Shown one piece after another: positions 6,564 through 62,939 of a stretch of DNA of 64,000 nucleotides. Each line of letters starts with the position of its first letter. The stretch's first letter is position 1. Source of the stretch: an uncultured Lachnospiraceae bacterium. Lineage in GTDB: Bacteria; Bacillota; Clostridia; Lachnospirales; Lachnospiraceae. The DNA is taken from assembly GCA_950097145.1 (NCBI GenBank), contig CATNCF010000001.1, positions 1-64,000 on the forward strand. The letters run 5' to 3'. Below the pieces are notes generated by a model. The model had not been told where the DNA came from. It saw only the letters and a program-made list of their open reading frames with translations, and made no database searches. The translations under genes and the position numbers were made by a program.

Positions 6564-6724
6564 ATTATCTCCTTTCAGAGCATTGCGGGGTTCGTGCAAA
6601 TTTACCCTACTGCCGGCATTCATGCCCATAACATTTTTTTGCTTACGCAAAGGAAATAGGATCCTTTACACCTCGGTACTGACTACGCACCTCGTAGGTA
6701 TGTAGCATCTGACTTGGAAGGTAG

Positions 6725-6839
6725 AGCGGAGCGGAAACCGATGTTCCAGTTCACGTTCGAGCGGGGATTGTTCAGATTGACGTTGAAAACGCCCGCGTTA
6801 GAAGTGTTGTTCCACCTGCCGCCGCAAATCGGCAACCGC
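6725..6839 (-). repeat. DGR template repeat (TR)
   Basis: This 115-base non-coding segment aligns without gaps to 7354-7468 with 97 identities. Of 18 differences, 16 lie at adenines of the template (coding sense); the two others are a G-to-T at 6752 and a T-to-G at 6835 near the repeat edge. Read in the frame of the target gene, the TR is full of AAC/AAT codons (ICGGRWNNTSNAG...), the classic DGR design that lets Asn codons change widely without creating stops. It lies between Avd and the reverse transcriptase. Confidence 0.95.
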
Positions 6840-6852
6840 AATATCCTATTCC

Positions 6853-7188
6853 CTACTTGGCTGTACTTTTAATCCAGCCTCCAACCATCCTCCCGATTTC
6901 CACTACCAGACCGGACCAGATTTCATACTTTTTAGGCGGAAGAAAACCGAGATTATATGACAGGCGGACATATGCTTTCAGCTTTTCCACTTCTACATCC
7001 AATTCCTGCAGAGTAGTTTTTTTATAATATTTCTTATTGGCTTCAATAATTCTCTCCAGAATCAAATCCATGCACCGCTTGATATCTACAACCAATGCGA
7101 ATTTTTCTCCTTTGGGATACTGGGCCAGTGCTTTATATGCATAGTTCATCATATCAAAAGTCTTCTGTAATATCTTTAATTCTTCCAT
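6853..7188 (-). CDS. avd: DGR accessory variability determinant (Avd)
   Basis: A 111-residue helical, basic protein with the Avd / 23S-intervening-sequence four-helix-bundle pattern (LKILQKTFDMMNYAYKAL, then YPKGEKFALVVDIKRCM and LGFLPPKKYEIWSG). Avd forms a positively charged pentamer that binds the reverse transcriptase and template RNA and is required for mutagenic retrohoming in studied systems. I prefer the ATG at 7188 with GAGGGAG upstream; ATG 7218 is possible. Gene order target-Avd-TR-RT is the same as in the Bordetella phage system. Confidence 0.88.
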   Translation of the reverse strand: MEELKILQKTFDMMNYAYKALAQYPKGEKFALVVDIKRCMDLILERIIEANKKYYKKTTLQELDVEVEKLKAYVRLSYNLGFLPPKKYEIWSGLVVEIGRMVGGWIKSTAK

Positions 7189-7295
7189 CTGCTCCCTCTG
7201 TATCGCATTTTGTTTCATTCTACCACATTTCGTGTCATCTCAGATTTCTTTGTTATAAAATATCGCTTCTCGTTATTCTGTGCCTATAAAAATAT

Positions 7296-7317
7296 AGAGC
7301 CTGCTATCGCAGTCTCT
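7296..7317 (-). other. hairpin/cruciform downstream of DGR variable repeat
   Basis: On the coding (minus) strand AGAGACTGC, tetraloop GATA, GCAGGCTCT: a nine-pair stem with one mismatch, 37 bases past the end of the variable repeat. Characterised DGRs have a hairpin with a GRNA tetraloop just downstream of VR that boosts target recognition; GATA fits that pattern. Confidence 0.75.
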
Positions 7318-7338
7318 TTCAGAACACAGCGCAACAGA

Positions 7339-8403
7339 TTACAGATCGACAAAAGCGGAGCGGAAACCGATGTACCAGTAAACGCGCGAGCGGGGATTGT
7401 CCAGATCGACGCGGAAAACGCCCGCGCCAGAAGTGAAGCCCCACCCGCCGCCGCAAAGCGGCACCCGCTCTCCGACAGCGTTAAACCAGTGATAATCACC
7501 GCCATAATCACCACCCGGCTCATCTGGATAAAGCAGTAAAATCTTTGCCAGCTCCGGAACTGTCAGACCGCTTGCCAATGTCATATCTTTGTACTGAATA
7601 CCCTGCCCGGCATCTGTCTTGTATGTAACGGCGCCACTTGTAAGCTGAATTTTCCCAGAAACCCAATCCCACTTCAAAGTTCCAGCTGTACCGGGAGCAA
7701 CCAGTGTTCCATCCGCTTTGATTGCTTTCCACAGGGTAGATGTCGGGGACATATCGCATTCACTGCCCATAGCTGCATTATTGTATGGAATAATCTGGAT
7801 TTCCCCATCCACCAGTCGCATTCCTGCATTCCATTCCCATACATTACCGTTCAAATCACAGATACCATCACTCTGCCAGTTATGATTCCATGTATTAGGA
7901 CCGGAACCAGTAAAGCATCTTCCAGTCCGTCCACTGTCTTTTGCGGATTCTTCCCCCTTTTCGTAAGTATATGAAGAATCGCAGCCATAGTTATTGTTGC
8001 CATGTGGCATAGTTCCATTTCTGCGGCACCACAAAGCAAGGTAGGCCCATTCAGACAATGTGGCAAGATGAAAACCAGGTCCTTTTGCTTCGCACGCCTG
8101 TCTCGCAGCATCAAAATTCAGAGAGTTTGCCGGGTCTCTGTGTGCCAGCGAATATGCCCTTCCATTCTCAATTATATTCTGATACTTGGAGTAATAGAAA
8201 GCGGTTTTTTCCACTACTGCACCATTACTCTCCACGTTAAAAGCTGGATGAATGTTCTGGCTAAGACCGCTCACCAAATCAGAATTCTTTCCCTTCGGAA
8301 TCCTCACATAAATAGACGGCAACCCAATATCATCAAGTAACACAACACTTTTCCCACCGGACAGCTCACTTACCGCAGCCGCCATCTGATCATAATTTCC
8401 CAT
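7339..8403 (-). CDS. DGR target protein with C-type-lectin/FGE-like fold; probable tail tip receptor-binding protein
   Basis: A 354-residue protein ending in the variable repeat. The middle holds formylglycine-generating-enzyme-like motifs (LATLSEWAYLALW, CDLNGNVWEWNAGM), typical of C-type-lectin-fold DGR targets. Residues about 313-350 are encoded by the variable repeat: GGGWGFTSGAG through YWYIGFRSA. Residues that differ from the template are nearly all Asn in the template and Gly, Phe, Arg, Asp or Tyr here, clustered as a binding surface. Position right after baseplate and fibre genes suggests a receptor-binding protein at the tail end. AAGGAGG precedes ATG. Confidence 0.9.
   Translation of the reverse strand: MGNYDQMAAAVSELSGGKSVVLLDDIGLPSIYVRIPKGKNSDLVSGLSQNIHPAFNVESNGAVVEKTAFYYSKYQNIIENGRAYSLAHRDPANSLNFDAARQACEAKGPGFHLATLSEWAYLALWCRRNGTMPHGNNNYGCDSSYTYEKGEESAKDSGRTGRCFTGSGPNTWNHNWQSDGICDLNGNVWEWNAGMRLVDGEIQIIPYNNAAMGSECDMSPTSTLWKAIKADGTLVAPGTAGTLKWDWVSGKIQLTSGAVTYKTDAGQGIQYKDMTLASGLTVPELAKILLLYPDEPGGDYGGDYHWFNAVGERVPLCGGGWGFTSGAGVFRVDLDNPRSRVYWYIGFRSAFVDL
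7354..7468 (-). repeat. DGR variable repeat (VR)
   Basis: Mutated copy of the template repeat at 6725-6839, ending 13 bases before the stop codon region of the target gene. Identity to TR resumes in the GC-rich 3' stretch GGTTTCCGCTCCGCT, the place of the IMH element where homing starts, and then the two copies diverge, as IMH and IMH* do in other DGRs. Replacements alter codons for about a dozen surface residues. Confidence 0.95.
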
Positions 8404-8418
8404 ATTCGTATATCCTCC

Positions 8419-8775
8419 TTATTCGATTGCATATAATTTAAGCGTTACATTCGCCATACTGAAAGCTACTGGTTTTTTCTCGGTAATATATTCCTGCACA
8501 ACAGTGTTATCCGTTTCGGATTCCGGATCATAATCAGGATTCGGAACCTCCCTCTCTGTGTACTGTCTAGCCGGGATTTCAATCTGTGCTGCATACTTCT
8601 CGCCTAACTGCCCGGCGGTAACCATCCCATTTTTATCAATGCAGATATCCACACACACATCATAGTCTCTTTCCAGCTTTTCACAATTAAGCATCAATTC
8701 ATCCGCAAAGGTTATCTTGCTCTTGGATACACTGTACTCAATTTTCTTTCCAACGCTTACCTCGACAACTTTCAT
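8419..8775 (-). CDS. phage tail-region protein, unknown function
   Basis: A 118-residue protein starting MKVVEVSVGKK with AAGGAGGTAGGACAG upstream; a longer upstream frame lacks a ribosome site. No domain recognised. It contains a proline/acidic stretch (VPNPDYDPESETD). It lies directly before the DGR target, so it may be a tail fibre accessory or attachment partner. Confidence 0.6.
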   Translation of the reverse strand: MKVVEVSVGKKIEYSVSKSKITFADELMLNCEKLERDYDVCVDICIDKNGMVTAGQLGEKYAAQIEIPARQYTEREVPNPDYDPESETDNTVVQEYITEKKPVAFSMANVTLKLYAIE

Positions 8776-8780
8776 CTGTC

Positions 8781-8942
8781 CTACCTCCTTAATTCTTTGT
8801 ATGCTTCTCCGGTTTTCTGAGCCACGCAATCAGCCATATCTCGCTGCTCCTTCGTTGCTCTTTCCGGATTGATACCATAATCTCTTAGTGTCCGATTAGC
8901 CTCAGCCTTTCTTTCATCGCTATGGATAATTATATTTGCCAT
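8781..8942 (-). CDS. small protein between tail fibre genes
   Basis: A 53-residue open frame starting MANIIIHSDERKAEANR and ending AYKELRR. Its ATG overlaps the stop codon of the preceding gene by one base (TAATG), and its end provides the ribosome site for the next gene, so translation is probably coupled. Function unknown. Confidence 0.65.
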   Translation of the reverse strand: MANIIIHSDERKAEANRTLRDYGINPERATKEQRDMADCVAQKTGEAYKELRR

Positions 8943-9424
8943 TACGCAGCACCTCCGCCCTGTACAAAACAGCGGACGGTCACGCTTTTGGCACTGCCAG
9001 TAAAGGCAATCTTAAAACCGTTGGCCTGCTTATCGTACACAACAACATTCCCCACATTGACCGGATTCCCCTGGACTTCTGTAATTACCCTATAATTTGT
9101 GCTGCTTCTCATATTTGCAAGCGCAACCGTCTTTACAGAATTATTGAAATAAAAACCTCTGGTATTTGTTAGAGAGACTTCTATTTCCTCGCCATCCACA
9201 GATTCAAGGCTTTGTTTGGTATGCTTCAACTGTTCCAACATAACCGCCAACATCAGCGAATTATTATGGATGCCCTGCTCCATATAACTAAAATGTGCAG
9301 CATCCATCTCTGTACCCTTTTGAATAATTTCTCCGCTATCCTTGTCTTTTACCTCGTCAAGCCACTCCTGCGGTGTATATGCGCTGGTTCCGTTTCCTTC
9401 AAGGTAACTTGGTAATACATTCAT
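8942..9424 (-). CDS. tail fibre/baseplate-associated protein
   Basis: A 160-residue protein. The N-terminal half has YTPQEWLDEVKDKDSGEIIQKGT and AHFSYMEQGI, a pattern seen in short phage fibre proteins, followed by a coiled-coil-like stretch and a beta-rich C-terminal half. The place after the baseplate genes supports a fibre or fibre-hinge role. I do not recognise a named domain with certainty. Confidence 0.6.
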   Translation of the reverse strand: MNVLPSYLEGNGTSAYTPQEWLDEVKDKDSGEIIQKGTEMDAAHFSYMEQGIHNNSLMLAVMLEQLKHTKQSLESVDGEEIEVSLTNTRGFYFNNSVKTVALANMRSSTNYRVITEVQGNPVNVGNVVVYDKQANGFKIAFTGSAKSVTVRCFVQGGGAA

Positions 9425-9426
9425 CC

Positions 9427-9741
9427 CTATTCATCTCCTTTCTCGTAAATCGGGAATTCAAATTTTGCCAACACTCCCTGACTTGCAGTCCTTTTTACCG
9501 TAACTGCCTGCTCCGCACATATAACACCGGTTACATCATACAGACGAATGCCGATAATTGTGTGGGCCGTCTTTGGAACAGTTGGCAAACTCACGATAAA
9601 AACAATTGTGTTGCCTGTAATTTTCTTGCTATTGACTTTTGCATCGTACCATGCACCATCCACCTGGTACTGGAACTTATGAATAGCTTCCATCCACTGG
9701 CGACGCCTTTTATCAAGAAAATCTTTTTTCCAGAAAGCCAT
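9427..9741 (-). CDS. small baseplate/tail protein
   Basis: A 104-residue protein starting MAFWKKDFLDKRRRQWMEAI with AGGAGGTATCAGG upstream; an upstream frame to 9786 lacks such a site. Beta-rich C-terminal part (IVFIVSLPTVPKTAHTI). Likely structural, between the DUF2612-like and fibre proteins. No family assigned. Confidence 0.6.
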   Translation of the reverse strand: MAFWKKDFLDKRRRQWMEAIHKFQYQVDGAWYDAKVNSKKITGNTIVFIVSLPTVPKTAHTIIGIRLYDVTGVICAEQAVTVKRTASQGVLAKFEFPIYEKGDE

Positions 9742-9752
9742 CCTGATACCTC

Positions 9753-10910
9753 CTATTCTATATTTCCACAGCTGCCTGTTCCACATCTCCTAATGGTTGC
9801 AGCAGCAATGCAGACCTTTGCTTTGGATTCCATACCTTTAGATGATATAGAAACCGTCTTGTACTCCCCGCCAGCTTTTCGCTCGGGTGAGGATGCTATT
9901 TCTGTCGGTGTTCCAAGGAGCTCTTTATCAGATATCTCAATTCCACCTTCAATTTCTACCGACAATGTTTCAGCCAGCGCACTGCCTCCTATGGTTTGGA
10001 GGCCAGCTGCTGGCATGGTAACTTTTGACGTATATGTGTTCCCATCAACAAGAATGTCTTTTGGAATAATTACTCCCTGAGTAGAAACAGACGGTTTCAA
10101 TCCCGAAACACTCTGACCGGATTGCAGAAAATCTACAATATGCAGATTACTGTCAACCTCTATTTCAACATCCTCTCCGAATATCTCTCCGAGAGTGGCA
10201 TTATATGCCCGTCCGCCAATTCGGATAGTTCCAGTTGGACTTGCCTCAAATGCCGCAATCAAAGTATTGATATCCTGCTCACAGCGTATTTCAATAATTG
10301 TTCCAAGCGTAGACCTACGAGGATATGTGCCACATACAAGCGTGTTGCATCTCGGCACATCATACTCTGAAATCCAAAAATTAAAGGCTACCTCCACGAT
10401 AGCCTTAATAAAATACTCAAATTCAATTCTTACCCCATCAGCCTTTACCATTGGAACTTCTCCCAGTGTTACTACTTTTCCGCCAGGAGTAAGAAATGGC
10501 ATTGTCAGAATAATTACGGCCGGTAATGCAGGATCCTCTCTGTAATAAATTGGGGAAACATCCCAAAGCAGAGCCAATCCATCCATTAAGTCATAATACG
10601 TACATTCATTTGTGTTTACCAGCATTTGATATTTTAGAAACTGCCTATACCTTTCATCACTTATTACCGGATCCTCAACGTCAATGCCTGCAAGTATGCC
10701 AGCTTCCTTTCTGGTAAGGGTTATAATGTCCCCCACCATATCCAGATTCATACCTACAGCACTTTCTAAATCTGTCTCTGAGTCCAATTGTTTGAATACC
10801 CTATGCAATTCCTCTATCTGCTTTGCAAATGCTGAAATTAGGGCTTCTATGCGTTCCTTTCCTTGAAACTGCTGTGGCATATCCTCAATCCAATCATCAA
10901 GAATGCCCAC
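9753..10910 (-). CDS. tail protein, DUF2612/gpI-like baseplate component
   Basis: A 385-residue protein. The N-terminal 200 residues (WIEDMPQQFQGKERIEALI, then LDMVGDIITLTRKEAG) follow the pattern of baseplate proteins that come right after gpJ, like P2 gpI or DUF2612. The C-terminal part is beta-rich and may carry fibre attachment. I start it at GTG 10910 because GAGGTGG lies just upstream and this gives a 14-base overlap with the J gene; the frame extends to 11030 without a ribosome site. Confidence 0.75.
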   Translation of the reverse strand: MGILDDWIEDMPQQFQGKERIEALISAFAKQIEELHRVFKQLDSETDLESAVGMNLDMVGDIITLTRKEAGILAGIDVEDPVISDERYRQFLKYQMLVNTNECTYYDLMDGLALLWDVSPIYYREDPALPAVIILTMPFLTPGGKVVTLGEVPMVKADGVRIEFEYFIKAIVEVAFNFWISEYDVPRCNTLVCGTYPRRSTLGTIIEIRCEQDINTLIAAFEASPTGTIRIGGRAYNATLGEIFGEDVEIEVDSNLHIVDFLQSGQSVSGLKPSVSTQGVIIPKDILVDGNTYTSKVTMPAAGLQTIGGSALAETLSVEIEGGIEISDKELLGTPTEIASSPERKAGGEYKTVSISSKGMESKAKVCIAAATIRRCGTGSCGNIE

Positions 10911-12357
10911 TATACACCACCTCGATTCTTGTATCGCTGATAACCGCTTTTTGTCTGCTCGTAATGGGGACATTGACCTTAGTATATTCATTGTCTGCAG
11001 GAATATGGTCCTTACTCGTAGTCGCAGCACATTTGATATCTATGTACGTTACTCCTCCCACAGTTGAATATATACCGTCATTGAATGTTTGAGATAACAT
11101 ATTATCCCCCGCCTGTAATTTCAATGCGTCCTTGACAATGGAATCCACTGCCAGATTTGCGTAATTAGTAGGAAGATATGACTGTTCGGCATCCAGCGTT
11201 ACTTTCATCCACACATACACATACTCTGGTCTATTAAAACTTATAGGTACGGAATCCCCGTACTCTGTTGCAACGCTGACTGTGATTTTTCCAAACGTCT
11301 GAATACCGGCAGCTTTTTTATCAAGTATAATACTGGCGATGGCGGTTTCATCTCCGCCATCTACAATGATTTCCACGCTGTGAGGCGGTCTCCCCTCTTC
11401 ATCTGTATCATCCGTATTATTTTCATATCCTGTGGCACTCTCTACATTCGGCACATTATTTATCAACTGGGAACAAATGCTGTCAATCATTCTTGTGGAA
11501 CGGATAGCAGACTTTGCCAGATAGGAATGCCGAAGCTCTATATCCGTTTCCTGTATTCTTCCATATGTTGGAATAATAAGATTTTCCACCTTGTCAAATC
11601 CGCTGATATTTGTAATCATTACCGTAACCGTTCCATTTGGAAATATCAATTTTCCATAATCTACGGTAGCAAAGTCAGCAAGCACCGTTACGCTTGATGT
11701 GGTCAGATTGTCAGACAGCACCATTACACCACTTCTTGATACAACCTCGTCTACAATATCCAATGTAATATCGCTTTCATTTACCGATACCTTATATCCA
11801 TCTGGATTCACAGCACGGCATAAACCTTGTATGATATTCAATTCATCATCTGATGTACTGGTATAACTGTACTGCACACCGTTTATGGATACAGAATAAA
11901 TTTCCCCTTTTACCGGAGCCGCCACTCTTACAGAAACCCTATTAAACTTATCTCTGGTAATTTCAAATTCTGCCACCGCCGCAAGTTTTCGCTGCGGAGC
12001 TGTATTCGTTGCCACTGTGGCTCCCTGTCTCACAACCGTACCATCATCACCAGTACAATGCAGTGTGTAAAAACTGTATTTATTCGGACTTCTCCGAATA
12101 CCGCCATACTGAACCGCATTGTCAAGGCTTACACCCTCCGCTGTAGACGGATACTTTGCATAATAACTGCTTTGCGCCACTTCCCACAGCTCCGCAATTT
12201 TTCCTCCATAAGTTGTGATAAGGACATTTAAAAAAGACTGATCATCCAGCCTTGTGTTGAAACCAAATTTTTCTGATAACTCTGAATGCAGTTCCTCCAA
12301 AATTTCATCCAATCTTTTAATAGCAAACCCTTTTTCGGTAATGCCATAATCAGCCAT
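10897..12357 (-). CDS. baseplate J-like protein
   Basis: A 486-residue protein matching baseplate J family layout: YGITEKGFAIKRLDEIL at the N-terminus, SLDNAVQYGGIRR near residue 80, and the C-terminal half with EIIVDGGD followed by repeated beta segments. gpJ proteins are wedge components that build the baseplate periphery of contractile tails. The start overlaps the gp25-like gene by eight bases. Neighbours are gp25-like and gpI-like, the usual order. Confidence 0.88.
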   Translation of the reverse strand: MADYGITEKGFAIKRLDEILEELHSELSEKFGFNTRLDDQSFLNVLITTYGGKIAELWEVAQSSYYAKYPSTAEGVSLDNAVQYGGIRRSPNKYSFYTLHCTGDDGTVVRQGATVATNTAPQRKLAAVAEFEITRDKFNRVSVRVAAPVKGEIYSVSINGVQYSYTSTSDDELNIIQGLCRAVNPDGYKVSVNESDITLDIVDEVVSRSGVMVLSDNLTTSSVTVLADFATVDYGKLIFPNGTVTVMITNISGFDKVENLIIPTYGRIQETDIELRHSYLAKSAIRSTRMIDSICSQLINNVPNVESATGYENNTDDTDEEGRPPHSVEIIVDGGDETAIASIILDKKAAGIQTFGKITVSVATEYGDSVPISFNRPEYVYVWMKVTLDAEQSYLPTNYANLAVDSIVKDALKLQAGDNMLSQTFNDGIYSTVGGVTYIDIKCAATTSKDHIPADNEYTKVNVPITSRQKAVISDTRIEVVYSGHS

Positions 12358-28747: not shown

Positions 28748-30181
28748 CTAATCAACCAGACTTCCGATATTAAATGTTTTTCTTTCATAACATGACAGAG
28801 CAACCGCATCTGCTCTGTCCGGGGAACTTATTCCTCTTTTCTTCATTTCCTCTTTACTTTCCAGCTGCATCTTTCCTCTGCTTGTTAACCTGTATTTTCT
28901 GCATGAAAACTGTGCAACCAGTTCATTATCATTCTGCAAACTAATTCCCTCTGCAATCAGCAGTTCTTTTACAGTTCCCCAGAGATAAGTTGTCATATTG
29001 TCGTAAATATCAGCAGCTTTAACCTTTCCTCCATCCACAACAACTTCATCTGGCACCCTGGCCGCAGCATTTACGGGAACAATTACCATACGATTCAACT
29101 TTTCTTCCCGTTTTACTTCTTCCAGTCGATCCGTCACTCCGCCACCAAGACCGCAATCATCAATATTTACATATATCTTCCCATGATACGTTGGATATGT
29201 TGCGATAATATGCCTATACTGCTGAACCACCTTCCCAACCGTTGTCATAAGACTTTGCCCTCTGAACATAACAGGCAATGTGATATTTCCGCCTACATTC
29301 AGCGCTATAACTGTTTCATCATCCCCATATCTAGCCACATCCACTCCAAGCGATATCCGTTTAATCGGCATATCTTCTGGCAGGTCCAACATGCAGCAAT
29401 GCTCAATAAGAGAAAGCATGATGAATACATCATCTTCCTGCTTTGGAAATTCACCAAAAACTCTTACAAGGACTACATTGCTATTTCTCCCATACTTCCG
29501 TATGAGAGATTCGATATTCTGCTTATTCGTCCTTGGACTATCTGCAGATGATACTGTATGGCATCTATAAAGAGCCCTGTCAGCATTGAAGGCATCGTAA
29601 AATGTGCCAGAAGTCCTTGTTGGGTTTCCACACATCAACAACTTATTGTTTTCGCCGGATAGCGTACCAAGTACCGCCTCCATAATCGGATCAGCGACGC
29701 CAGAGGCTTCATCTACTATGAATAGCATATTATCCTCGTGGAATCCCTGCATATTTTCTGGCTTTGTAGCAGTCCTGGCTACCGCAAACCAACGCTTTTC
29801 ATTGCCGACCATGTAAATATATGTCTTGGTCCATTTAAGGATTTCTGAGAGCAAAGGAGACTTACTCATCCATTTACTCACTTCGGACCACAAAACATCA
29901 TGTAACTGCTGTTTGGTTGGCGCAGTCGCTACAATCCTTGGATAAGGGTGGCAGCATAAAAACCACAACAATGCCGCAGCTTCTAAACCAGTTTTCCCAA
30001 CACCCTGCCCAGATTTAATCGCAACTTTCGGATTCTCTGCCAAATCCATCAGTGCCGCCCTTTGCCACTCATCCGGCTCAAATAACAATACCTCCTTTGC
30101 GAATATGACCGGATTTTTCCTATATACCGGAATTCTTTTCTGGAAGAACTGTTTCCTTAACGCTCGTGAGTTCTTATTCAT
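28748..30181 (-). CDS. terL: terminase large subunit
   Basis: A 477-residue packaging motor: Walker A SGQGVGKT near residue 59, Walker B MLFIVDEAS near residue 150, and nuclease-domain acidic residues in LGVDVARYGDDETV and VNIDDCGLGGG. It cleaves concatemers and pumps DNA through the portal. ATG 30181 overlaps the small-subunit stop by eight bases; a GTG-start extension of two codons is possible. Confidence 0.92.
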   Translation of the reverse strand: MNKNSRALRKQFFQKRIPVYRKNPVIFAKEVLLFEPDEWQRAALMDLAENPKVAIKSGQGVGKTGLEAAALLWFLCCHPYPRIVATAPTKQQLHDVLWSEVSKWMSKSPLLSEILKWTKTYIYMVGNEKRWFAVARTATKPENMQGFHEDNMLFIVDEASGVADPIMEAVLGTLSGENNKLLMCGNPTRTSGTFYDAFNADRALYRCHTVSSADSPRTNKQNIESLIRKYGRNSNVVLVRVFGEFPKQEDDVFIMLSLIEHCCMLDLPEDMPIKRISLGVDVARYGDDETVIALNVGGNITLPVMFRGQSLMTTVGKVVQQYRHIIATYPTYHGKIYVNIDDCGLGGGVTDRLEEVKREEKLNRMVIVPVNAAARVPDEVVVDGGKVKAADIYDNMTTYLWGTVKELLIAEGISLQNDNELVAQFSCRKYRLTSRGKMQLESKEEMKKRGISSPDRADAVALSCYERKTFNIGSLVD

Positions 30182-30995
30182 CACCACTCACATCCTCTCC
30201 CTCGTCTTCCTCAAGAACCGCTGCAATCCAATCGTCAACAGCATCATTTCCAGCACTTTCACTTTCCAATTTTGCTTTTTCTAAGCGGTATTTTGACAAT
30301 GCTTCAATAGCTTTTGTCTTTTTACTCTGAACGGTGGAAAGCTCCTGTTCCAGCCTTGCTATTACCATATCCTTGTTTGAGGTATGTGTCTGTATGCTGT
30401 AGGACTTACCCGGAAGAATATCTCCTTTATCAACCTTTATCTTCTGGCGCCTATCATATTCAGCCTCTTCCTCCTTATTCTTGAAGATTCTCTTATCCTC
30501 AAATCTGGTGACATCAGCAACCGCTACATCTCCTTTTTGTTCCCGATACTTATTGATTGCTTTTAGTATTCTGCGCTCCCGAATAGAGAAAAGCTGTATT
30601 TGTTCCATGAGCTGCAGCTCGGTATCTTTGGGAACCGTTGCAACGAGCTCCTGTTCATCATCATCAAGAGCATCCATAAATACCGGAACATATCCACCAT
30701 GCTTTGTCGCATCCGGAGGCGGTTTGGGGTTCGGATTGCCGGAGCCGCCTTTTGCGTTCTTATTCCCTGGCTGCCCGCCTTTTTTTCGCTTTTGCAACGT
30801 TGCACTTTTTTTATCTCCTTTTTTCGCAACGTTGCGTTTGTTTTTTTTTGACTTATCGCCCCATCCGTACCTATTCTTCCAGCTGCGAACCGTTCCGTCA
30901 GAAACTCCCAATTTTTTCGCAATTTCCACCATTGCCATTCCATCATTAAACAGCTTTTCGGCTTCAATCATTTTTTCGCTCGGCGCCCTTGGCAT
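30174..30995 (-). CDS. terS: terminase small subunit
   Basis: A 273-residue protein. The N-terminal 45 residues are a helix-turn-helix (MVEIAKKLGVSDGTVRSWKNR), then a basic linker with GGQPGNKNAKGG, which is typical of PBSX-type small terminases, then a coiled region. It recognises the packaging site and feeds DNA to TerL. Two 10-base palindromes in its own gene (30794-30836) are candidate binding sites. Confidence 0.85.
   Translation of the reverse strand: MPRAPSEKMIEAEKLFNDGMAMVEIAKKLGVSDGTVRSWKNRYGWGDKSKKNKRNVAKKGDKKSATLQKRKKGGQPGNKNAKGGSGNPNPKPPPDATKHGGYVPVFMDALDDDEQELVATVPKDTELQLMEQIQLFSIRERRILKAINKYREQKGDVAVADVTRFEDKRIFKNKEEEAEYDRRQKIKVDKGDILPGKSYSIQTHTSNKDMVIARLEQELSTVQSKKTKAIEALSKYRLEKAKLESESAGNDAVDDWIAAVLEEDEGEDVSGDE
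30794..30836. promoter_or_regulatory. paired palindromes inside terS, candidate packaging site
   Basis: GCAACGTTGC occurs at 30794-30803 and again at 30826-30835 (extended to the 12-base palindrome CGCAACGTTGCG at 30825-30836). Centres are 32 bases apart, about three helical turns, in AT-rich surroundings. Pac sites are often inside the small terminase gene, so TerS binding is a reasonable guess. Confidence 0.4.
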
Positions 30996-31037: not shown

Positions 31038-31060
31038 AAAAAGGGGAGCATACACTCCCC
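31038..31060 (-). terminator. terminator between ParB-like gene and terS
   Basis: On the minus strand GGGGAG, six-base loop, CTCCCC, then TTTTT. It separates the symporter/PAPS-reductase cassette from the packaging genes, so the late operon may begin downstream of it or depend on read-through. Confidence 0.75.
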
Positions 31061-31096
31061 TGTGTGTGGCTCTCACGCATATTTATTGATTTATCG

Positions 31097-31618
31097 TTAA
31101 ATCTTCGTTATAAACTCCGCTTTTGAATAGCCCTCATTCGGCTTAATCATCATTCTCAGGAAGTCTTCTTTTGAAAACTCCGAGAGACGGAATATTTCTT
31201 CGGGCCTCATGCCGAGCTGCTTTCCAATCTCCTCTACCGTCTTACCTTCGTTCATCAGCTCCTTTACAATCGCTTTCATTGGTTCCAGCAGATGCGTACC
31301 TCTTGCCCTGTTATGAGTAACGGTGCCATAGATATTTCCAGCTTTATCCTTATGCTCTACAATGACAACTGGCACCTTTCCTTCCAGCATTGATACCAAC
31401 GGTTCTTCTCCTGCAACGGTCCAACGGTGGAACCCGTCAATAATCGTAAAATCTGGTCTTACCACAATCGGCAACGTCCATCCGTTCGTTAGAATGGACT
31501 GCTTCAGCAATTCCAGATTTTGTTTTGATACTTTGTTTGGGTTGTAATCATTTGGCTTTACCCTGCCTCTGTCTACCCATTGAAGAGTGTCAAGAGGGCT
31601 TATCATCTTACTATCCAT
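31097..31618 (-). CDS. ParB/Srx-like protein, IbrB type
   Basis: A 173-residue ParB-like protein: VKPNDYNPNKVSKQNLELL, then IIDGFHRWTVA (the ParB-N/sulfiredoxin-fold box) and HNRARGTH, and a C-terminal helical part with GKQLGMRPEEIFRL. This is the IbrB arrangement, usually paired with an IbrA PAPS-reductase-like protein; here that partner is the overlapping upstream gene. The fold can bind nucleotides and some members cleave DNA. The start at 31618 follows AAGGAGG. Biochemical role unknown. Confidence 0.82.
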   Translation of the reverse strand: MDSKMISPLDTLQWVDRGRVKPNDYNPNKVSKQNLELLKQSILTNGWTLPIVVRPDFTIIDGFHRWTVAGEEPLVSMLEGKVPVVIVEHKDKAGNIYGTVTHNRARGTHLLEPMKAIVKELMNEGKTVEEIGKQLGMRPEEIFRLSEFSKEDFLRMMIKPNEGYSKAEFITKI

Positions 31619-32759
31619 TTCGCATTCCCTCCTTCTTCTTGGCTTCTGTAATATATTTACCATATATTCGCTGATACAATGCCCGGAACGACCGCAGTTT
31701 TGGATCTCCGGAAACGAGCCCTTCATAAATTGCCTTGCAGTCCTTATTGTCTGCAATGGCAGAAACGCTCATAAAAAAATTCCTATACCGCCCAGCCACA
31801 TATCTTTTATGTTTTGTTTGAAAATTACCATCCATATCAGAAAATAGTTCCAAAAGAGCAGCTTTATAATCCTTTTCCGCTTTTCCTTTCTCATTCTGCT
31901 TTCTGGCAGTTGTGCTTCTCCCAAACATTTCACTGTCCCAATATAAGGCGGCAAGATATGCGTTAGGCTCCCGGCGGACTATCCTTTCCATAAGGTCGGG
32001 ATAATACTCATTCATTTTCACAAGGCTTTTTGCAGTATCAATTGAAAAGAACTGTGATACTCTGAGCTGCCCCTTTCGTGTGCCGGACTGCCATAGAAAT
32101 AAATAAATCTCTGGTATGTCTACCTTTTCTCGAAGGAGGTAAAGCCACACATCATTATTGGTCCAGTCATACAGAGGAAATACCTGGTGCTTATTCGTTG
32201 CGGTCTTCCCTGCTTTCAGCATGGTAGCCACATTCTGTAATCTCTGAACCGATTCCGCTGTTCTGATTCCGGTAATTGTTACCCCATCCGAACATACCCT
32301 CGGAAGGAAATCCTGATATGCGTCTGTCCGAGGTTTCAGCAATGGGTGATTCCGAATTGCGAAAGATGGCGGTTGTCTTACCCAAACATCTTTTTTATAT
32401 CTGTCCCAGCAAATAAAGGTTTCATCGTTGGACAGTTCATTAAAGCAATTGTAGTGTTTCACCTCAAGGCAGAACCACTCAAACTTTGCTCCAACTAACA
32501 TAAATTTCTTTCGCCACTCCCTTACCTTTTCATCCATGCATGGGAATATGGCTTCTTCATCAATAAATTGCACAGTCAGCTGTGCCGGGTTGATTTCTCC
32601 TGCCTGTATCAGATTCATTACGAGCTGTGACAGGCACAGGCTGTCTTTTCCACCGCTAAAGGACATATATACCGGCAGGCCATTCCGAAATACGTTCCGG
32701 ATTCTGATTTTTGCTGCCTCTACAACATCAATGCTGGCCGGACATCGTTTTATAGCCAT
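31611..32759 (-). CDS. PAPS-reductase-like PP-loop protein, IbrA type (DUF3440-like)
   Basis: A 382-residue adenine-nucleotide alpha-hydrolase. The PP-loop is SFSGGKDSL near residue 40; TVQFIDEEAIFPCMDEKV and VTITGIRTAESVQRLQ follow the PAPS-reductase fold, and a C-terminal extension matches DUF3440/IbrA length. Family members activate a substrate by adenylation or reduce PAPS; IbrA/IbrB substrates are not established. It is coupled by overlap to the IbrB-like gene and to the upstream ParB-like gene. Confidence 0.83.
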   Translation of the reverse strand: MAIKRCPASIDVVEAAKIRIRNVFRNGLPVYMSFSGGKDSLCLSQLVMNLIQAGEINPAQLTVQFIDEEAIFPCMDEKVREWRKKFMLVGAKFEWFCLEVKHYNCFNELSNDETFICWDRYKKDVWVRQPPSFAIRNHPLLKPRTDAYQDFLPRVCSDGVTITGIRTAESVQRLQNVATMLKAGKTATNKHQVFPLYDWTNNDVWLYLLREKVDIPEIYLFLWQSGTRKGQLRVSQFFSIDTAKSLVKMNEYYPDLMERIVRREPNAYLAALYWDSEMFGRSTTARKQNEKGKAEKDYKAALLELFSDMDGNFQTKHKRYVAGRYRNFFMSVSAIADNKDCKAIYEGLVSGDPKLRSFRALYQRIYGKYITEAKKKEGMRNG

Positions 32760-33376
32760 ATCTTTTCTCCGCAATTTGGGCAGGTAACGAATTTTCTTAC
32801 TTCGGTGGTTTCCTCACTGCCTCCTTCTGAATCCTGCTGTGACGGAACCGCCGATTGTGGCACCAGCTCCTGTCCTGATTCAATTTTCTGTATCTGCTGC
32901 TCTTTCCTTTCAGCATTTTCCTTGATACTCTGAATTTCTTCATCATCAAGTGTTCCATACTCGGAGAGCTTATCTGTAATATCCTCAGCCTCGGAGACCA
33001 TCTGCTTTAAGATTTCTTCATCAAAGCCAGGGATATCCAAATCTCCCTGCAGGTCCTCCAAAAAGCTGTTCAGTGTTTCCAAGTTCTCAATACCCAAGCT
33101 GAAAATCTTATTGTCGGCAATCATCAGCTTCTTTTTCTGATTTTCAGTGAGATTATCATACCGATATACATCTGCTGTTTCTTTCCCCATAGCAATGAGT
33201 GTATCGTACAGACCATTTCCCGCCAGAATGATGTTGTTCTCGTCAACAACGATAGGTCGGATCTGCCCGAACATCTTTACGCTGCGCTGAAACTCCTTCA
33301 ACTGTTGTTCGGTATGGATTCTGACATTCTTTTCCGGCTTAACAAGGTCAGCCAGTTTCATTTTGGTTATTTCCAT
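32750..33376 (-). CDS. ParB-like protein with C-terminal zinc ribbon
   Basis: A 208-residue protein starting MEITKMKLADLVKPEKNVR with AGGAGG upstream. The ParB-N fold is visible in FGQIRPIVVDENNIILAGNG. A long acidic coiled linker leads to a terminal CPNCGEKIW half zinc ribbon. It pairs with the second PAPS-reductase-like gene upstream, separated by a terminator-like hairpin. Some phage ParB-N proteins act in DNA modification or as nucleases; which applies here is unknown. Confidence 0.78.
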   Translation of the reverse strand: MEITKMKLADLVKPEKNVRIHTEQQLKEFQRSVKMFGQIRPIVVDENNIILAGNGLYDTLIAMGKETADVYRYDNLTENQKKKLMIADNKIFSLGIENLETLNSFLEDLQGDLDIPGFDEEILKQMVSEAEDITDKLSEYGTLDDEEIQSIKENAERKEQQIQKIESGQELVPQSAVPSQQDSEGGSEETTEVRKFVTCPNCGEKIWL

Positions 33377-33444
33377 GTTCGTGTCCTCCTGTAATTTATT
33401 GGAGGAACGATTGATGTATGATATATGCGCTATCTGCAAATAGC

Positions 33445-33483
33445 AAAAAGACAGCCTGCGAACAACCGCCCGCAAATGCTGTC
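33445..33483 (-). terminator. terminator between the two PAPS-reductase/ParB groups
   Basis: On the minus strand GACAGC ... GCTGTC with an inner TGCG/CGCA pairing, followed by TTTTT. A second small hairpin GCTAT/ATAGC (33429-33444) follows. It divides the cassette into symporter plus PAPS-reductase 2, and ParB 2 plus IbrA/IbrB. Confidence 0.65.
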
Positions 33484-33497
33484 AAATGTCAGCGTAT

Positions 33498-34283
33498 TTA
33501 TTTAAGGCTTTTCAGAAAATCCTTTGCACTCTGGATATGCTCTGCAGCCCCGGTTACAATAGAGCTGTCAATCTCATAGATTTCTGCCCAGGCATTTTCC
33601 ACACTCCCGGTCCACTGCCTTGCCGGCCAAGGATGTGTGCCACAAAGATATCCGTTTTTCCAGTCATAAATCGGCGGCATTTCCAAATTGTAATAATGTA
33701 TATATGCCAACACCTGCTCATGCGTCCAGTCAGACATGGGGCTGTATCTTGTTACCCCCTGCCCGTTGGTATAAATGTTATCTCCCTTTCCAACATAATT
33801 CCCATCAGCTCTCCGCCTTCCAAGCAGCAGCATATCCAATTCCTGCTCCTTATAATATTTTGCCTGGCCTCTATGCTGGACAATCTGAAACCACCTTGCC
33901 GCAAATTTGCTGTCCTGTGGAAAAAGCATCTGCAGATGGTTTGCCAGCCATTTTATATCCTGACCTGTGTTAATTATGGACAATTCCGGAGGCTTATGCC
34001 CCTCTACCCATTCTGTAAATGCTTTATACTCCAAATTACTGATTACGAGGACACAGGGGGTTATCCCTGCCCGCCGGCAAATTTCACCAAGTACCAGGGA
34101 ATCCTTTCCACCGCTCCATGCATAGGCAGCTTTCTTCCCTTTGGTTTTCTTCTTAATCTCCTTTACTGTCTTTTCGACCAGCTGATCCAGTTCTTTTTTT
34201 GTTACCAGCTGCTCTATTTTTCCAAATGTATCTATCCAATCAGAGTTTTTTATCCTCTGCTTTCTGCCAAGTACATCACCCAT
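33498..34283 (-). CDS. second PAPS-reductase-like PP-loop protein
   Basis: A 261-residue PP-loop protein: AWSGGKDSLVL near residue 58, LSIINTGQDIKWL, MLLLGRRRADGN, and YSPMSDWTHEQVLAYI. It is shorter than the IbrA-like paralogue and only distantly similar. The start overlaps the symporter stop by eight bases, so it is translationally coupled to a transporter. This suggests that the transported compound may be its substrate or cofactor source; inference only. Confidence 0.82.
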   Translation of the reverse strand: MGDVLGRKQRIKNSDWIDTFGKIEQLVTKKELDQLVEKTVKEIKKKTKGKKAAYAWSGGKDSLVLGEICRRAGITPCVLVISNLEYKAFTEWVEGHKPPELSIINTGQDIKWLANHLQMLFPQDSKFAARWFQIVQHRGQAKYYKEQELDMLLLGRRRADGNYVGKGDNIYTNGQGVTRYSPMSDWTHEQVLAYIHYYNLEMPPIYDWKNGYLCGTHPWPARQWTGSVENAWAEIYEIDSSIVTGAAEHIQSAKDFLKSLK

Positions 34284-35661
34284 TCCGCACACCTCGCTTT
34301 CCGCTTATTGCCAAGGCAACCGCCCCAGAAAGAATAACCGTCAAAAGACTGCCGACAGTCTTATAAGCCGCAATTCCCTGTATATTCCCATATCCAAATA
34401 TCGGCAAACCGATAATCAGAGCCGAGATAATTCCTGCAACTACTCCCTGTGGTGTCAGTTTTATTCCTTTAAGGGTAAATACCGTTGGAAGCAACGTAGC
34501 AGCTCTTAGCGTTCCATACATTAGGAACAGGTGTGTTACCGTCAATCCTGGTATGTTGGCTACGGCAATTCCGACAGCCAACAGTAAAATCATAGCGAAC
34601 TTTGTTTTTCCAAGTGTCTTTTTCTCAAAAATGTCTGTTGTGAGGGATGATACTGCGCACAGATTGCTATCTATCGTAGACAGCAAACCCGATACAATCA
34701 TAAACAAGAATGGGATAATCGCCCATGCCGGGAATAGTGTGCTTATCAGTTCAAAATTGATGATTCCGGTATCCACTGCGACATATCCCATGCCAGAACC
34801 GATAAACCCAAGCACACCCATTGACAAAGGCACAATCCCAAACAGTAGAGCTCCCACAAGAAAAGCTCTGCCTATTCTGTCTTTCCTAACACAGAATGCC
34901 CTTTGCCAAAAGCACTGGTCTCCAAACGGTCCTGAGATAAGCCCTATCGTTGTTGGAAGTCCAAACCCTAAAAAGATTTCCCATCCTCTCTTGGAGAACA
35001 GTGATCCGGCATCTCCTGCGGCTCCTCCTAAACCCGTAACCAGCGTTTCCATGCCTCCGCCATTCTTTACACCAAAAGCAACAAAACCAATGCTGGCGGC
35101 TAACATAAAAACCATCTGAACCGCATCCGTCAGTATTGAAGCTTTAATTCCTGAGAACTGCGAATACGAAAAGGCAATTACCGCCATAATAACCGTCATG
35201 GCCGCAAAAGGTATTCCAGTAAGCATACTTAATATCTTGCTGCCTGCCAACAGCTGCACTCCCGTCGATAATGCCGACAATGCGCCGAGCTGGAACAGAT
35301 ATATATTTTTCACAGCTTTGGAATGATATTTCCCATACATATAGCCGGACAATGTAATTCCCTCCGGCATTTCTTCCCTAATCCTCTTTGCAAAGGGAAT
35401 GAACAGTATCAGACACAGCACGTTCGGAACCAGAAACCAAAAGAGCCCTGCAAAGCCCTTTGTGTAAGCATTCTCGGTTGATGTGAATAGAGCCGGTGCC
35501 CATATCCATGTAGCAGCTATGCTCAAAGCCGACACCATCCAGCCAGTTTTCCTATTTCCGACACAGAACTGTTCAATATTGTTCTCTTTTTTTGTCATAA
35601 GTACCGTAACCCCAAGCATCATTGCAGCATAGGTCAACAGTACAATCAAAGTATAATCCAT
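34276..35661 (-). CDS. sodium:solute symporter (SSS family)
   Basis: A 461-residue membrane protein with about 12-13 hydrophobic helices. FCVGNRKTGWMVSALSIAATW near the N-terminus is the typical SSS start, and helix 8-9 has LLSTIDSNLCAVSSL, matching the SSS sodium-binding region. SSS proteins import sugars, amino acids, vitamins or anions with sodium. A full-length transporter coupled to PAPS-reductase genes inside a phage is unusual. GGAGGAAAAGC precedes ATG 35661. Confidence 0.88.
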   Translation of the reverse strand: MDYTLIVLLTYAAMMLGVTVLMTKKENNIEQFCVGNRKTGWMVSALSIAATWIWAPALFTSTENAYTKGFAGLFWFLVPNVLCLILFIPFAKRIREEMPEGITLSGYMYGKYHSKAVKNIYLFQLGALSALSTGVQLLAGSKILSMLTGIPFAAMTVIMAVIAFSYSQFSGIKASILTDAVQMVFMLAASIGFVAFGVKNGGGMETLVTGLGGAAGDAGSLFSKRGWEIFLGFGLPTTIGLISGPFGDQCFWQRAFCVRKDRIGRAFLVGALLFGIVPLSMGVLGFIGSGMGYVAVDTGIINFELISTLFPAWAIIPFLFMIVSGLLSTIDSNLCAVSSLTTDIFEKKTLGKTKFAMILLLAVGIAVANIPGLTVTHLFLMYGTLRAATLLPTVFTLKGIKLTPQGVVAGIISALIIGLPIFGYGNIQGIAAYKTVGSLLTVILSGAVALAISGKRGVRNG

Positions 35662-35858: not shown

Positions 35859-36449
35859 TTAATGAACTTTCAATCCATCCACCCCAAAAATAAGAGCCGA
35901 TAATCTTTCTGTCGCAACTTTGATGTCCTCATATACATTTCTAGTAGATATGTTCTGCTTATCTGCAATCTCCTTTGCTGATAAAGTAGTATCTGCCATA
36001 TACATATCCCATACAACCTCATACCGCCTCATTTCAATTTCCCGGTTTGGGGCATTGCCGCAATACGCCTCATACAACCCAAACATTGTTTCTATATGAG
36101 AAACAATAACTGCGGTTCTGGTGGCGCTCCGCTTTATGCTTTCAATAATAACCTCATTATCATACATTGACATCATTGATTCCAGAACATCTATTGCAGA
36201 TTCCTCCATCTGAGTTCTTCCAAACACTGAATTTTCTGCATGTTCTTTCAGCATATGATAATTGCGAAGCAGTAGCTTGGTATTCCTCAGCCTCCGATCT
36301 GCTCTCTTCCCCTGCTCTTTTTTCCGTTCCTGCTCGAACATTTTCAGAGCCTCTTTCGCTCCAATAGTAGCCGCATTCTCATAAATCTCCTTTAGTTGTT
36401 CATGTGTCAGAACCACTAAAGTCTTATTGTCTGTTGTCTGGCTATCCAT
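35859..36449 (-). CDS. ArpU-like late transcription regulator
   Basis: A 196-residue protein with a long N-terminal helical region and a C-terminal helix-turn-helix (TLSAKEIADKQNISTRNVYEDI) of the sigma-like ArpU/DUF1492 type. In Firmicute phages such proteins sit between early and late genes and switch on packaging and structural genes. It is last before a terminator and the late region. AAGGAGG precedes ATG. Confidence 0.8.
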   Translation of the reverse strand: MDSQTTDNKTLVVLTHEQLKEIYENAATIGAKEALKMFEQERKKEQGKRADRRLRNTKLLLRNYHMLKEHAENSVFGRTQMEESAIDVLESMMSMYDNEVIIESIKRSATRTAVIVSHIETMFGLYEAYCGNAPNREIEMRRYEVVWDMYMADTTLSAKEIADKQNISTRNVYEDIKVATERLSALIFGVDGLKVH

Positions 36450-41126: not shown

Positions 41127-41297
41127 TTATCCTAACCTCCCAATACATCTAATTGTCGTTGCCAGTTTCTTTTCCTCTGGCCCTACGCTTTGCACCATCC
41201 GATTAAATTCTTCGTCACTCAAACCCTGGATGCGTTTTGCAATTTCCATTACTCTATTCCAAACAATACATCCCAACAATGTGTAAAATTCTTTCAT
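41127..41297 (-). CDS. small protein after Dam methylase
   Basis: A 56-residue frame: MKEFYTLLGCIVWNRVMEIA, then LSDEEFNRMVQSVGPEEKK. Its ATG overlaps the methylase stop by four bases (ATGA), indicating coupled translation. No family recognised. Confidence 0.6.
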   Translation of the reverse strand: MKEFYTLLGCIVWNRVMEIAKRIQGLSDEEFNRMVQSVGPEEKKLATTIRCIGRLG

Positions 41298-42109
41298 CCA
41301 AGTCCTCCTAAATCCTCAAACGTTAGCTGTTTCCCTGGCGGCTCATAATTCATCCAAAGAATTTCCCTCTTTTTAGAACATGTCTGGGAATATGCTGTCA
41401 TTTCGTATCTGTTCCATCCTGCCAACATTGAATTGTAAAGCTCCGTTTCATAACCGCTGATAACTACATATCCCTTATGCTTTAATAAAATATCCAGAAG
41501 TGCCTCATGGTCTTCATCATCCATTTCGCACCTATACTGTTTCCCATGCCGGGTTCTCAACATATACGGCGGATCGCAATATATCAACACATTTTTAAAA
41601 TCAAAGCGTGGTATTAGCTCCAATGCTGGTCTGTTGTCTATCTGTACCCCTCTAAGCCTTTCCGCTGCCTGCATGATTTTTTCCGGAAGATTACACCAAT
41701 CCTGTGATGCATAGGAACGTTCCCTGCCCTGCACATCATTTTTCCATCCGACCTTTTCGCCGGTTGTCCGAAAACCATGCCCCATATTTAAACGAATATA
41801 GAAATATAAAGCTGCTTCAAACTTATCCTTCGGAATCGCTTGATAAGCTTTTTCATATACTTCTCTGGAGTATGGTGTCATGTAAATGCTTCTGGCTAAT
41901 CTTTCTGGATCTGTTCTTATGCATTCGAACAAATTCACAACATTTCCATCCAAATCATTTACTGTTTCTATGTTCGACCTTGGCTTATTAAATAATATGG
42001 CTCCACTCCCAAAAAACGGCTCAAGATAACTGTGGTGTTCCGGAAAAAGGTTTATAATCCGATCCGAAAGCGACCATTTGCTCCCTGGGTACTTTGCTAT
42101 AGCCTTCAT
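41294..42109 (-). CDS. Dam-type DNA adenine N6-methyltransferase
   Basis: A 271-residue enzyme: YPGSKWSLSDRI and EPFFGSGAILFNKP (SAM-binding), NDLDGNVVNLF, and the catalytic motif YCDPPYM near residue 180. The D12/Dam class methylates adenine, often in GATC; the target is not readable from sequence. It could shield phage DNA from restriction or regulate replication. Confidence 0.88.
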   Translation of the reverse strand: MKAIAKYPGSKWSLSDRIINLFPEHHSYLEPFFGSGAILFNKPRSNIETVNDLDGNVVNLFECIRTDPERLARSIYMTPYSREVYEKAYQAIPKDKFEAALYFYIRLNMGHGFRTTGEKVGWKNDVQGRERSYASQDWCNLPEKIMQAAERLRGVQIDNRPALELIPRFDFKNVLIYCDPPYMLRTRHGKQYRCEMDDEDHEALLDILLKHKGYVVISGYETELYNSMLAGWNRYEMTAYSQTCSKKREILWMNYEPPGKQLTFEDLGGLG

Positions 42110-62424: not shown

Positions 62425-62449
62425 AACTCTGCACAGATTGTGGTATATT
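62421..62449 (+). promoter_or_regulatory. promoter for the structured RNA
   Basis: TTGAAA (62421-62426), 17-base spacer ending TGTGG, TATATT (62444-62449). It starts over the integrase stop codon and points to the hairpin-rich RNA. The toxin promoter on the other strand has the same TTGAAA-17 layout and TGTGG spacer end. Confidence 0.7.
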
Positions 62450-62455
62450 GAACAT

Positions 62456-62702: not shown

Positions 62703-62788
62703 TGGCGCCACCTCCCCTCCTATGTATTCCGGCAGGCCGGTCATTAAGCTTGGGAGGCTACCACCCCTGTCATGGGTTCCATATTGGA

Positions 62789-62817: not shown

Positions 62818-62861
62818 TCAGATTATCTTTTCGTGGAATATGTGGAAAGTGTTTCAAAATC

Positions 62862-62929: not shown

Positions 62930-62939
62930 CAAATGTCCG

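Follow-up and report, generated by a model that had tools for sequence, protein, structure and literature searches.

A putative importer joined to PP-loop and ParB-like genes beside the terminases of Clostridia phages: a possible import-dependent modification pathway

Introduction

Why would a phage keep the gene of a sodium:solute symporter next to genes for PP-loop and ParB-like proteins, at the border of its terminase genes, and what could such a set of genes accomplish together? The question is raised by a stretch of 64,000 nucleotides from an uncultured Lachnospiraceae bacterium (assembly GCA_950097145.1, contig CATNCF010000001.1, positions 1 to 64,000; hereafter the window, meaning the whole stretch), all of which is prophage, with genes for portal, head protease, tape measure and endolysin and an integrase at 61324-62424. 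On its minus strand, five genes follow one another in the order sodium:solute symporter (SSF), PP-loop protein (PP1), ParB-like protein (PB1), IbrA-like protein and IbrB-like protein, with an ArpU/RinA-like gene on one side and the terminases on the other. An earlier note on this DNA had described the same arrangement, which is borne out by Pfam and PHROG matches, and had proposed that an imported precursor is adenylated and transferred to nucleic acid by two parallel modules.

As described below, the linkage of the symporter with this cassette is far above chance, and the importer slot is almost always filled, by one of three kinds of importer. The importer and the PP-loop/ParB proteins very probably act in one process. 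The closest relatives of the cassette among named genomes are found in Lachnospiraceae and other Clostridia.

Results

With the symporter of the window as query, the best 80 of 87 relatives in viral contigs were combined with 50 loci from bacterial genomes. PB1 comes directly after the symporter in 118 of these 130 loci, 7 loci end too soon, and 5 are exceptions. Three of the latter (L032, L102 and L115) have the symporter interrupted at an identical codon; in L032 and L115 the remaining part of the gene lies 13.5-15 kb off, past an inserted element, while in L102 a second symporter part was looked for and not found. In L098, PP1 holds a transposon-like insert and the rest of the cassette is situated on its far side. 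The fifth exception, L062, is devoid of both PB1 and IbrA, and PP1 runs directly into IbrB.

Queries free of the symporter were used against query bias. The symporter is present in 67 of the 80 loci retrieved with IbrA (best 80 of 118; 11 too short, 2 without), in 59 of 70 retrieved with PB1 (8 too short, 3 without) and in 16 of 18 retrieved with PP1 (2 too short). Among 398 genomes of the phylum, 42 match the PB1 alignment at E<=1e-10, and the only matches above 100 bits, in genomes G000 and G473, both belong to an SSF cassette; 28 other matches that were fetched reach at most 89 bits, are nearly all longer open frames, and show no cassette in the short stretches fetched. A wider search, in which the PB1 alignment was headed by its most distant member (best 80 of 249, pooled with four earlier loci), yielded 66 loci, a few of them from one contig, comprising 21 with SSF, 16 that are too short and 29 without SSF despite sufficient room. 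All of these 29 carry another importer, namely a protein of about 330 residues termed T2 (22 loci) or T3, an ABC permease followed by an SsuA/NMT1-like binding protein (7 loci). The first such swaps were encountered in L305 and L309 (T2) and in L323, where the T3 permease precedes a lipoprotein binding protein.

After loci with identical last 150 PB1 residues had been merged, 171 distinct PB1 proteins remained over all loci: 126 with SSF (importer type T1), 28 with T2, 5 with T3, 11 in loci that are too short and one scored as lacking an importer; this last one is L098, whose symporter is displaced beyond range by the insert. From the symporter-free queries, 125 distinct PB1 proteins were obtained, 114 with an importer upstream (81 SSF, 28 T2 and 5 T3), 11 in short loci and none without. 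In the reverse direction, for which SSF and T2 served as the importer queries, the T2 query (best 80 of 101 relatives) gave PB1 as the next called gene in 76 of 80 loci; two loci are too short, L471 has T2 and PP1 with no PB1 called, and in L483 the PB1 frame overlaps T2 and was hence missed by the calling rule. In viral contigs, SSF and T2 were found almost only within this cassette. The loci are related to each other, so that all these counts are not independent samples.

An element of 13.5-15 kb interrupts the symporter gene of the phage in L408 (G003:C1:3300-19400) and L409 (G002:C110:33900-49200), the insertion site being the codons of LLSTVDSN in the sodium-site helix. At its end lies a tyrosine integrase gene (PF00589 in L408; L409 alike by eye), possibly preceded by an excisionase, and in L408 the sequence CTGTTATCCACGGTCGA is common to both junctions. 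In L102/L410 the break falls at the same symporter site as in L408/L409 and neighbouring genes are held in common; the other half was not found there. The insert resembles a mobile element or a satellite that has adopted the phage symporter gene as its attachment site. Separately, PP1 of a Eubacterium plexicaudatum prophage (L098, 9632-13187) is split by a transposon-like insert of ~3.5 kb that, as judged by eye, includes genes resembling those of transposases and ATPases.

As to the importers themselves, the window symporter (34276-35661, minus strand) scores 68 bits against the Pfam SSF cut-off of 22.8 and matches phrog_20720 at E=2e-229; its open reading frame of 493 residues is open to a TTG at 35757, the homology-supported start being 35661. 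W84, W86, D211, S360 and T361 (numbering of the 493-residue frame) are invariant in all 124 aligned phage symporters, and we take the S360-T361 pair and D211 to lie on sodium-site positions. Hence, the symporter assigned by the earlier note is confirmed as a genuine member of the SSF family, for which sodium-coupled transport is predicted. In profile comparisons with the PDB, it comes closest to DUR3 (E=7e-21), followed by a choline transporter (E=4e-18). The phage symporters found are 53-94% identical to the window protein, as opposed to 20-29% for the 17 best-scoring cellular SSF proteins compared (245 genomes of the window's class), and therefore look like a phage-specific branch of the family; at such low identities, the cellular relatives were dismissed as a guide to the operon of the symporter.

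None of three T2 members tried reaches a Pfam cut-off, and neither of two has a PHROG match. An AlphaFold model of the L309 protein, with a predicted local distance difference test score (pLDDT) of 84.3 and a predicted template modelling score (pTM) of 0.80, shows ten long helices with breaks in helices 1 and 6. Its best Foldseek match in the PDB is the choline transporter CHT1 (E 3.9e-4, template modelling (TM) score 0.62; another CHT1 entry reaches TM 0.67), followed by AdiC, NRAMP and CodB, with 6 matches only at E<=0.001; all four are LeuT-fold transporters. According to the model, T2 is a predicted LeuT-fold protein, and T1 and T2 may share a fold with no detectable sequence similarity, T3 being of a different kind. 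Its binding protein matches the NMT1/THI5-like family PF09084 with 95.5-102.7 bits against a cut-off of 20.5 and stays under the sulfonate and taurine cut-offs (SsuA_fam, 101-115 bits versus 163.5), each in three proteins; its nearest PDB entry is an unnamed exported protein, followed by SsuA, THI5 and TauA. The best NCBIfam model for the T3 permease is SaoP, with 119.5 bits against a cut-off of 295. Naming of the substrate by homology was attempted and does not lead to a decision: the nearest PDB entries are DUR3 and choline transporters for SSF, CHT1 (by fold) for T2 and the unnamed protein for the T3 binding protein.

The core enzyme is the IbrA-like protein (31611-32759, minus strand; PAPS_reduct 53.9 bits; phrog_2302, E=5e-95), to which PP1 (33498-34283, minus strand; PAPS_reduct 41.4 bits versus 22.5) is added as an optional member. 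The motif S[GFA]GKD[SA] is kept in 97 of 100 PP1 and 112 of 116 IbrA proteins, whereas ECG[LI]H and GCxPC are found in none of the 100 and none of the 116. In the CysH proteins of three genomes of the window's class, taken as a yardstick, the corresponding motifs read SSLSIEDQ (a degenerate PP motif), GCQPC and KKECGLH. An identity of IbrA and PP1 as PAPS (phosphoadenylylsulfate) reductases was consequently rejected, the ATP-pyrophosphatase motif being intact and the catalytic cysteine motifs absent; both proteins look like ATP-pyrophosphatases, for which adenylation is predicted. An AlphaFold model of IbrA (387 residues; pLDDT 80.6, pTM 0.68) gives 27 Foldseek matches in the PDB at E<=0.001, among them the tRNA thiolase NcsA/TtuA, LarE, APS/PAPS reductase, ATP sulfurylase and FAD synthase, which we take to be enzymes of the ATP-pyrophosphatase superfamily. 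As judged from this model, IbrA is predicted to have the Rossmann-like ATP-pyrophosphatase fold, and the TM score of ~0.3 on the 387-residue query indicates that the core alone is shared. In terms of IbrA model scores, the forms differ widely: bare IbrA proteins reach 40-141, and the tabulated ones beside PB1 at least 403.

Of the cassettes, 99 of 126 with SSF, 12 of 28 with T2 and 1 of 5 with T3 contain PP1; it is thus missing from 27, 16 and 4 of them, respectively, and at least 18 changes in its presence are required on the IbrA tree. Because PP1 comes and goes in this manner, the idea of two parallel modules was abandoned. The search for the five-gene order in other phages therefore found the importer, PB1, IbrA and IbrB to be constant and to form the core, but not PP1.

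PB1 (32750-33376, minus strand) matches phrog_620 at E=1e-51 and has no Pfam match. It terminates in a CPxCGexiWL knuckle, which reads CPNCGEKIWL in the window and recurs in 106 of 120 PB1 proteins. With a single Cys pair, the designation as a zinc protein is half shown: the knuckle is there, but one pair only. The motif G[NHV][GT]R is absent from all 120, and G[NHV]G[LC] occupies its place in 107, so that PB1 may bind without nucleotide turnover. IbrB (31097-31618, minus strand; ParB_N 26.8 bits versus 26.3; phrog_2159, E=1e-74) keeps DG[FY]HRW and HNRARG in 116 of 116 proteins, and its C-terminal part is, by eye, helix-turn-helix-like (HTH).

The history of the cassette was traced on an IbrA tree of 94 proteins, 81 of them with known importer, from which IbrA proteins without GKDS or shorter than 300 residues were left out, as were those more than 85% alike with the same labels; proteins under ~80% of query length had been left out of the alignments. 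The kind of importer changes at least 6 times on this tree (7 when the bare outgroup is counted as a fourth state), compared to a shuffled mean of 20.2. Well-supported branches force at least 5 changes of the SSF label, and the T3 members constitute one side of a branch with support 99. Hence, importers were exchanged repeatedly. Pairwise distances, calculated from 35 loci with all six genes after loci less than 8% apart in SSF had been dropped, correlate with r=0.60-0.85 among the cassette genes and with r=0.37-0.41 between each of them and the large terminase subunit (TerL), all values being above all 500 shuffles. The stronger correlation within the cassette suggests that its genes diverge together, as if moved as a unit. 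Moreover, the gene order is retained at identities as low as 37% for PB1 and 54% for SSF. The conserved linkage of symporter and PP-loop genes, upon which the earlier note had made its proposal depend, is therefore found in the kept order, in the swaps of the importer and in congruent divergence.

With the homology-supported starts (35661, 34283, 33376, 32759 and 31618 for SSF, PP1, PB1, IbrA and IbrB), overlaps of 8-10 nucleotides occur at three of the four junctions (SSF/PP1, PB1/IbrA and IbrA/IbrB), which makes coupling plausible there. The previously claimed translational coupling of symporter and PP1 accordingly remains plausible; PP1 and PB1 are ~120 nucleotides apart. A terminator-like hairpin (31042-31061, minus strand, by sequence scan) lies between IbrB and the small terminase subunit, and 44 of 167 loci, among them those of the window's kind, have a hairpin of the terminator type after IbrB, with a shuffled expectation of 1.2. 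A scan gave 18 terminator-like sites against 6.1 expected, and 18 promoter-like sites against 15.5 expected, the latter being uninformative for operon limits.

Downstream, the small terminase subunit (30174-30995, minus strand; phrog_1889, E=1e-56) and the large subunit (28748-30187, minus strand; phrog_2, E=1e-45, with the best match to phrog_5902 of unknown function at E=1e-75) adjoin the cassette. A terminase lies within 3 kb in 81 of the 133 distinct IbrB loci with at least 3.5 kb downstream, as scored with models of the two subunits. For 9 of the other 52, one downstream gene each was checked by Pfam, which revealed 8 large terminases (four of the GpA, three of the TerL_ATPase/nuclease and one of the Terminase_6 type) and no match in L323. 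Upstream, the gene at 35859-36449 (minus strand) matches phrog_1558, a family of unknown function, and has a weak HTH match; we presume it to be an ArpU/RinA-like late regulator, and in the Faecalibacterium phage FP_Taranis a gene annotated as RinA-like has the same place.

Elsewhere in the window, the prophage encodes a DNA polymerase processivity-factor-like and an SbcCD-like protein, a type II DNA methyltransferase-like protein (41294-42109) and, close to its left end, an amidoligase-like protein (638-1561). In the region 61324-63965, a protein just past the integrase is presumably the C-terminal part of the host GMP synthetase, encoded by the 3' part of guaA, and this guaA part is plausibly the integration site.

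Discussion

In the proposal favoured here, the five genes serve one pathway and not two. The importer, in the window the SSF symporter, would, if it works as we infer, take a small molecule into the cell, and IbrA, aided by PP1 in many phages, would spend ATP at an adenylating site, activating either this molecule, as its presumed substrate, or the target. The ParB-like proteins IbrB and PB1 would keep this chemistry at a nucleic acid, most probably the DNA of the phage just before it is packaged, and the product would be a modified base or backbone that might benefit the phage by protecting its genome or marking it for packaging. The sequence of import and then ATP-dependent activation has good support and, as the earlier note had stated, is coherent, since the PP-loop proteins look like ATP-pyrophosphatases. 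In addition, a pathway defined by its compound would permit different kinds of importer to replace each other. The full pathway, with DNA as the target, is put forward more cautiously and with somewhat less than an even chance. Generalized to phages of Clostridia-like bacteria, it would mean that these import a compound of which the host makes too little, activate it with ATP and write it into DNA before packaging with ParB-like proteins as guides, and that phage "cysH" genes of this clade do not belong to sulfur metabolism; this wider statement is more tentative still.

Several observations weigh against the proposal. The phage record PJN03 has the order PB1-IbrB-IbrA and, over its 44.5 kb, in which most proteins are unnamed, no match to the SSF, T2 or T3 models. 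Other genomes and a Streptococcus phage contain bare IbrA-IbrB pairs, devoid of PB1 and importer, which implies that IbrAB can act without import, unless these pairs draw on a metabolite of the host. Beside the permease of five T3 loci (L341, L342, L344, L345 and L346), no gene for an ABC ATPase was seen by eye, so that T3 would need an ATPase of the host. Moreover, the three importers could carry different substrates. Owing to the hairpin after IbrB, transcription of the cassette may be separate from that of the terminase in the subgroup with such hairpins, and expression with the late operon is not assured there. Finally, modification of nucleic acid is itself a step that we infer.

Bare pairs were also noted in two further settings. 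The host genome G000 contains, as a second pair, a bare IbrA-IbrB at G000:C11:7979-9271 (L190), with chromosomal-looking neighbours (by eye) and no PB1 or importer. In L191 (G006:C41:28000-46000), a bare pair at 6392-11850 lies beside a second PAPS-domain-like gene; its neighbours look like two CRISPR RAMP-like genes and one MT-A70 methyltransferase-like gene, and papers on type IV-B CRISPR reportedly name CysH.

Five other explanations were weighed. It is unlikely, in our estimate, that the cassette is a regulatory circuit, in which IbrA/IbrB would co-activate prophage or host genes, PB1 would be a DNA-binding regulator and the importer would supply or sense a ligand. Phage records do annotate the family as "co-activator of prophage gene expression", and the name IbrA/IbrB reportedly stands for co-activators of prophage or host gene expression; the ParB domains and the HTH-like C-terminus of IbrB would suit DNA binding, and the hairpin would be consistent with a separate transcription unit. 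Nevertheless, the intact ATP-pyrophosphatase motifs speak for chemistry over sensing alone, and feeding a sensor by three kinds of importer would be odd.

Improbable, too, is a membrane-level or metabolic moron, of which the importer would be the useful part, either in nutrient uptake by the lysogen or in exclusion of a competing phage or toxin, while the ParB and PP-loop genes would control or reset it. Such a role would agree with a slot that is nearly always filled, whose occupant changed several times, and with the near confinement of SSF and T2 in viral contigs to the cassette; however, it leaves unexplained why two ParB-like proteins and an ATP-pyrophosphatase are needed and why the genes are placed at the terminase side.

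We consider it quite improbable that RNA is the target, with IbrA acting as an ATP-dependent tRNA modifier of the kind of TtuA/NcsA or TilS and with a tRNA or mRNA modification made from the imported compound during late expression. The tRNA thiolases NcsA/TtuA are the best PDB profile and fold matches of IbrA, but these matches are weak (profile E 0.0025; Foldseek TM ~0.3 on the query) and common to the whole ATP-pyrophosphatase superfamily, and the ParB-like partners point to DNA.

Sulfur auxiliary metabolism, that is, uptake of a sulfur compound and PAPS reduction, is the usual reading of phage "cysH" and is very unlikely to apply. It draws on the automatic name PAPS reductase, on the resemblance of the T3 binding proteins to SsuA/TauA, and on the counting of phage cysH as assimilatory sulfate reduction in one recent metagenome paper, which lists 167 such genes (PMC10914622). 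On the contrary, PP1 and IbrA are devoid of the cysteine motifs that CysH proteins of the same class possess, and the T3 proteins remain under the sulfonate and taurine cut-offs.

Finally, a cargo hot spot, in which the slot upstream of the terminase gathers unrelated genes and the common order reflects descent only, is scarcely credible. In its favour, phage modules are often inherited as blocks, the loci are related and the cassette distances show a correlation even with TerL. Against it, the order persists at low identity, importers were exchanged while PB1-IbrA-IbrB stayed, cassette genes correlate more with each other than with TerL, and the truly optional PP1 comes and goes at one place. 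One importer-less PB1/IbrA/IbrB record was found (PJN03).

Under the import-coupled pathway, the near-constant importer, for which three kinds were recruited, would make an outside compound an input to phage biology, and a product situated on DNA would amount to a modification that depends on import and might counter restriction. The findings also caution against the frequent practice of assigning phage genes called PAPS reductase or cysH to sulfur metabolism, since such genes can encode ATP-pyrophosphatases that serve another purpose. Pioen, an active Faecalibacterium phage with the cassette, offers a direct test.

Relation to Known Systems

The cassette is real and widespread, and the searches point to its being undescribed: no paper on it was found in the open-access subset of the literature, which agrees with the earlier note. 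The gene set T2-PB1-IbrA-IbrB is present in the Faecalibacterium phages FP_Taranis (gp35-gp38) and Pioen (PP479940, orf75-orf78), and the FP_Taranis record annotates it gene by gene as transporter membrane protein, ParB-like, PAPS reductase/IbrA and ParB-like/IbrB. Activity of Pioen is demonstrated in PMC11792537, and a term search of the main texts of PMC5883640 and PMC11792537 gave 0 occurrences of "transporter" and of "ParB". A survey of Clostridium clostridioforme prophages places phrog_424/2302 proteins under "host metabolism" (PMC11318856).

The window pair is, by match, like the IbrA/IbrB pair of prophages (phrog_2302/phrog_2159), the bare form of which is exemplified by Streptococcus phage CHPC1230; unlike this bare pair, the cassette version is joined by PB1 and nearly always by an importer. 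With cellular SSF symporters such as DUR3 (urea), CHT1 (choline), SGLT and PutP, the window symporter shares the family, at the low identities to the cellular proteins compared that are given above. The phage cysH "auxiliary metabolic genes" have the same Pfam domain PAPS_reduct and the same automatic names, whereas the cassette proteins lack the catalytic cysteine motifs and keep that of the ATP-pyrophosphatases.

The parallel to DNA phosphorothioation drawn by the earlier note proved weak. The models of DndC and BrxP, from the DndC/DndB and SspD/BrxP systems, match the cassette weakly, and we know of no counterpart of the importer in Dnd or SspD/BrxP. Dnd-type phosphorothioation was rejected as an identity: IbrA reaches 24.8 bits against the NCBIfam DndC cut-off of 290.4, the BrxP match is weak as well, and no relatives of DndD or DndE were found among the 10 neighbouring window proteins scanned. 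Like Dnd, the cassette does combine an ATP-pyrophosphatase with a ParB-superfamily protein, the roles being those given in PMC10853773 and PMC12839542. In the Dpd system of 7-deazaguanine modification, as the latter source describes it, the ParB-like protein is DpdB and a precursor is inserted into DNA (PMC12839542). ParB-like proteins are thus common to Dpd and the cassette; the five genes do not include the transglycosylase DpdA, and the supply of the precursor would here fall to the importer.

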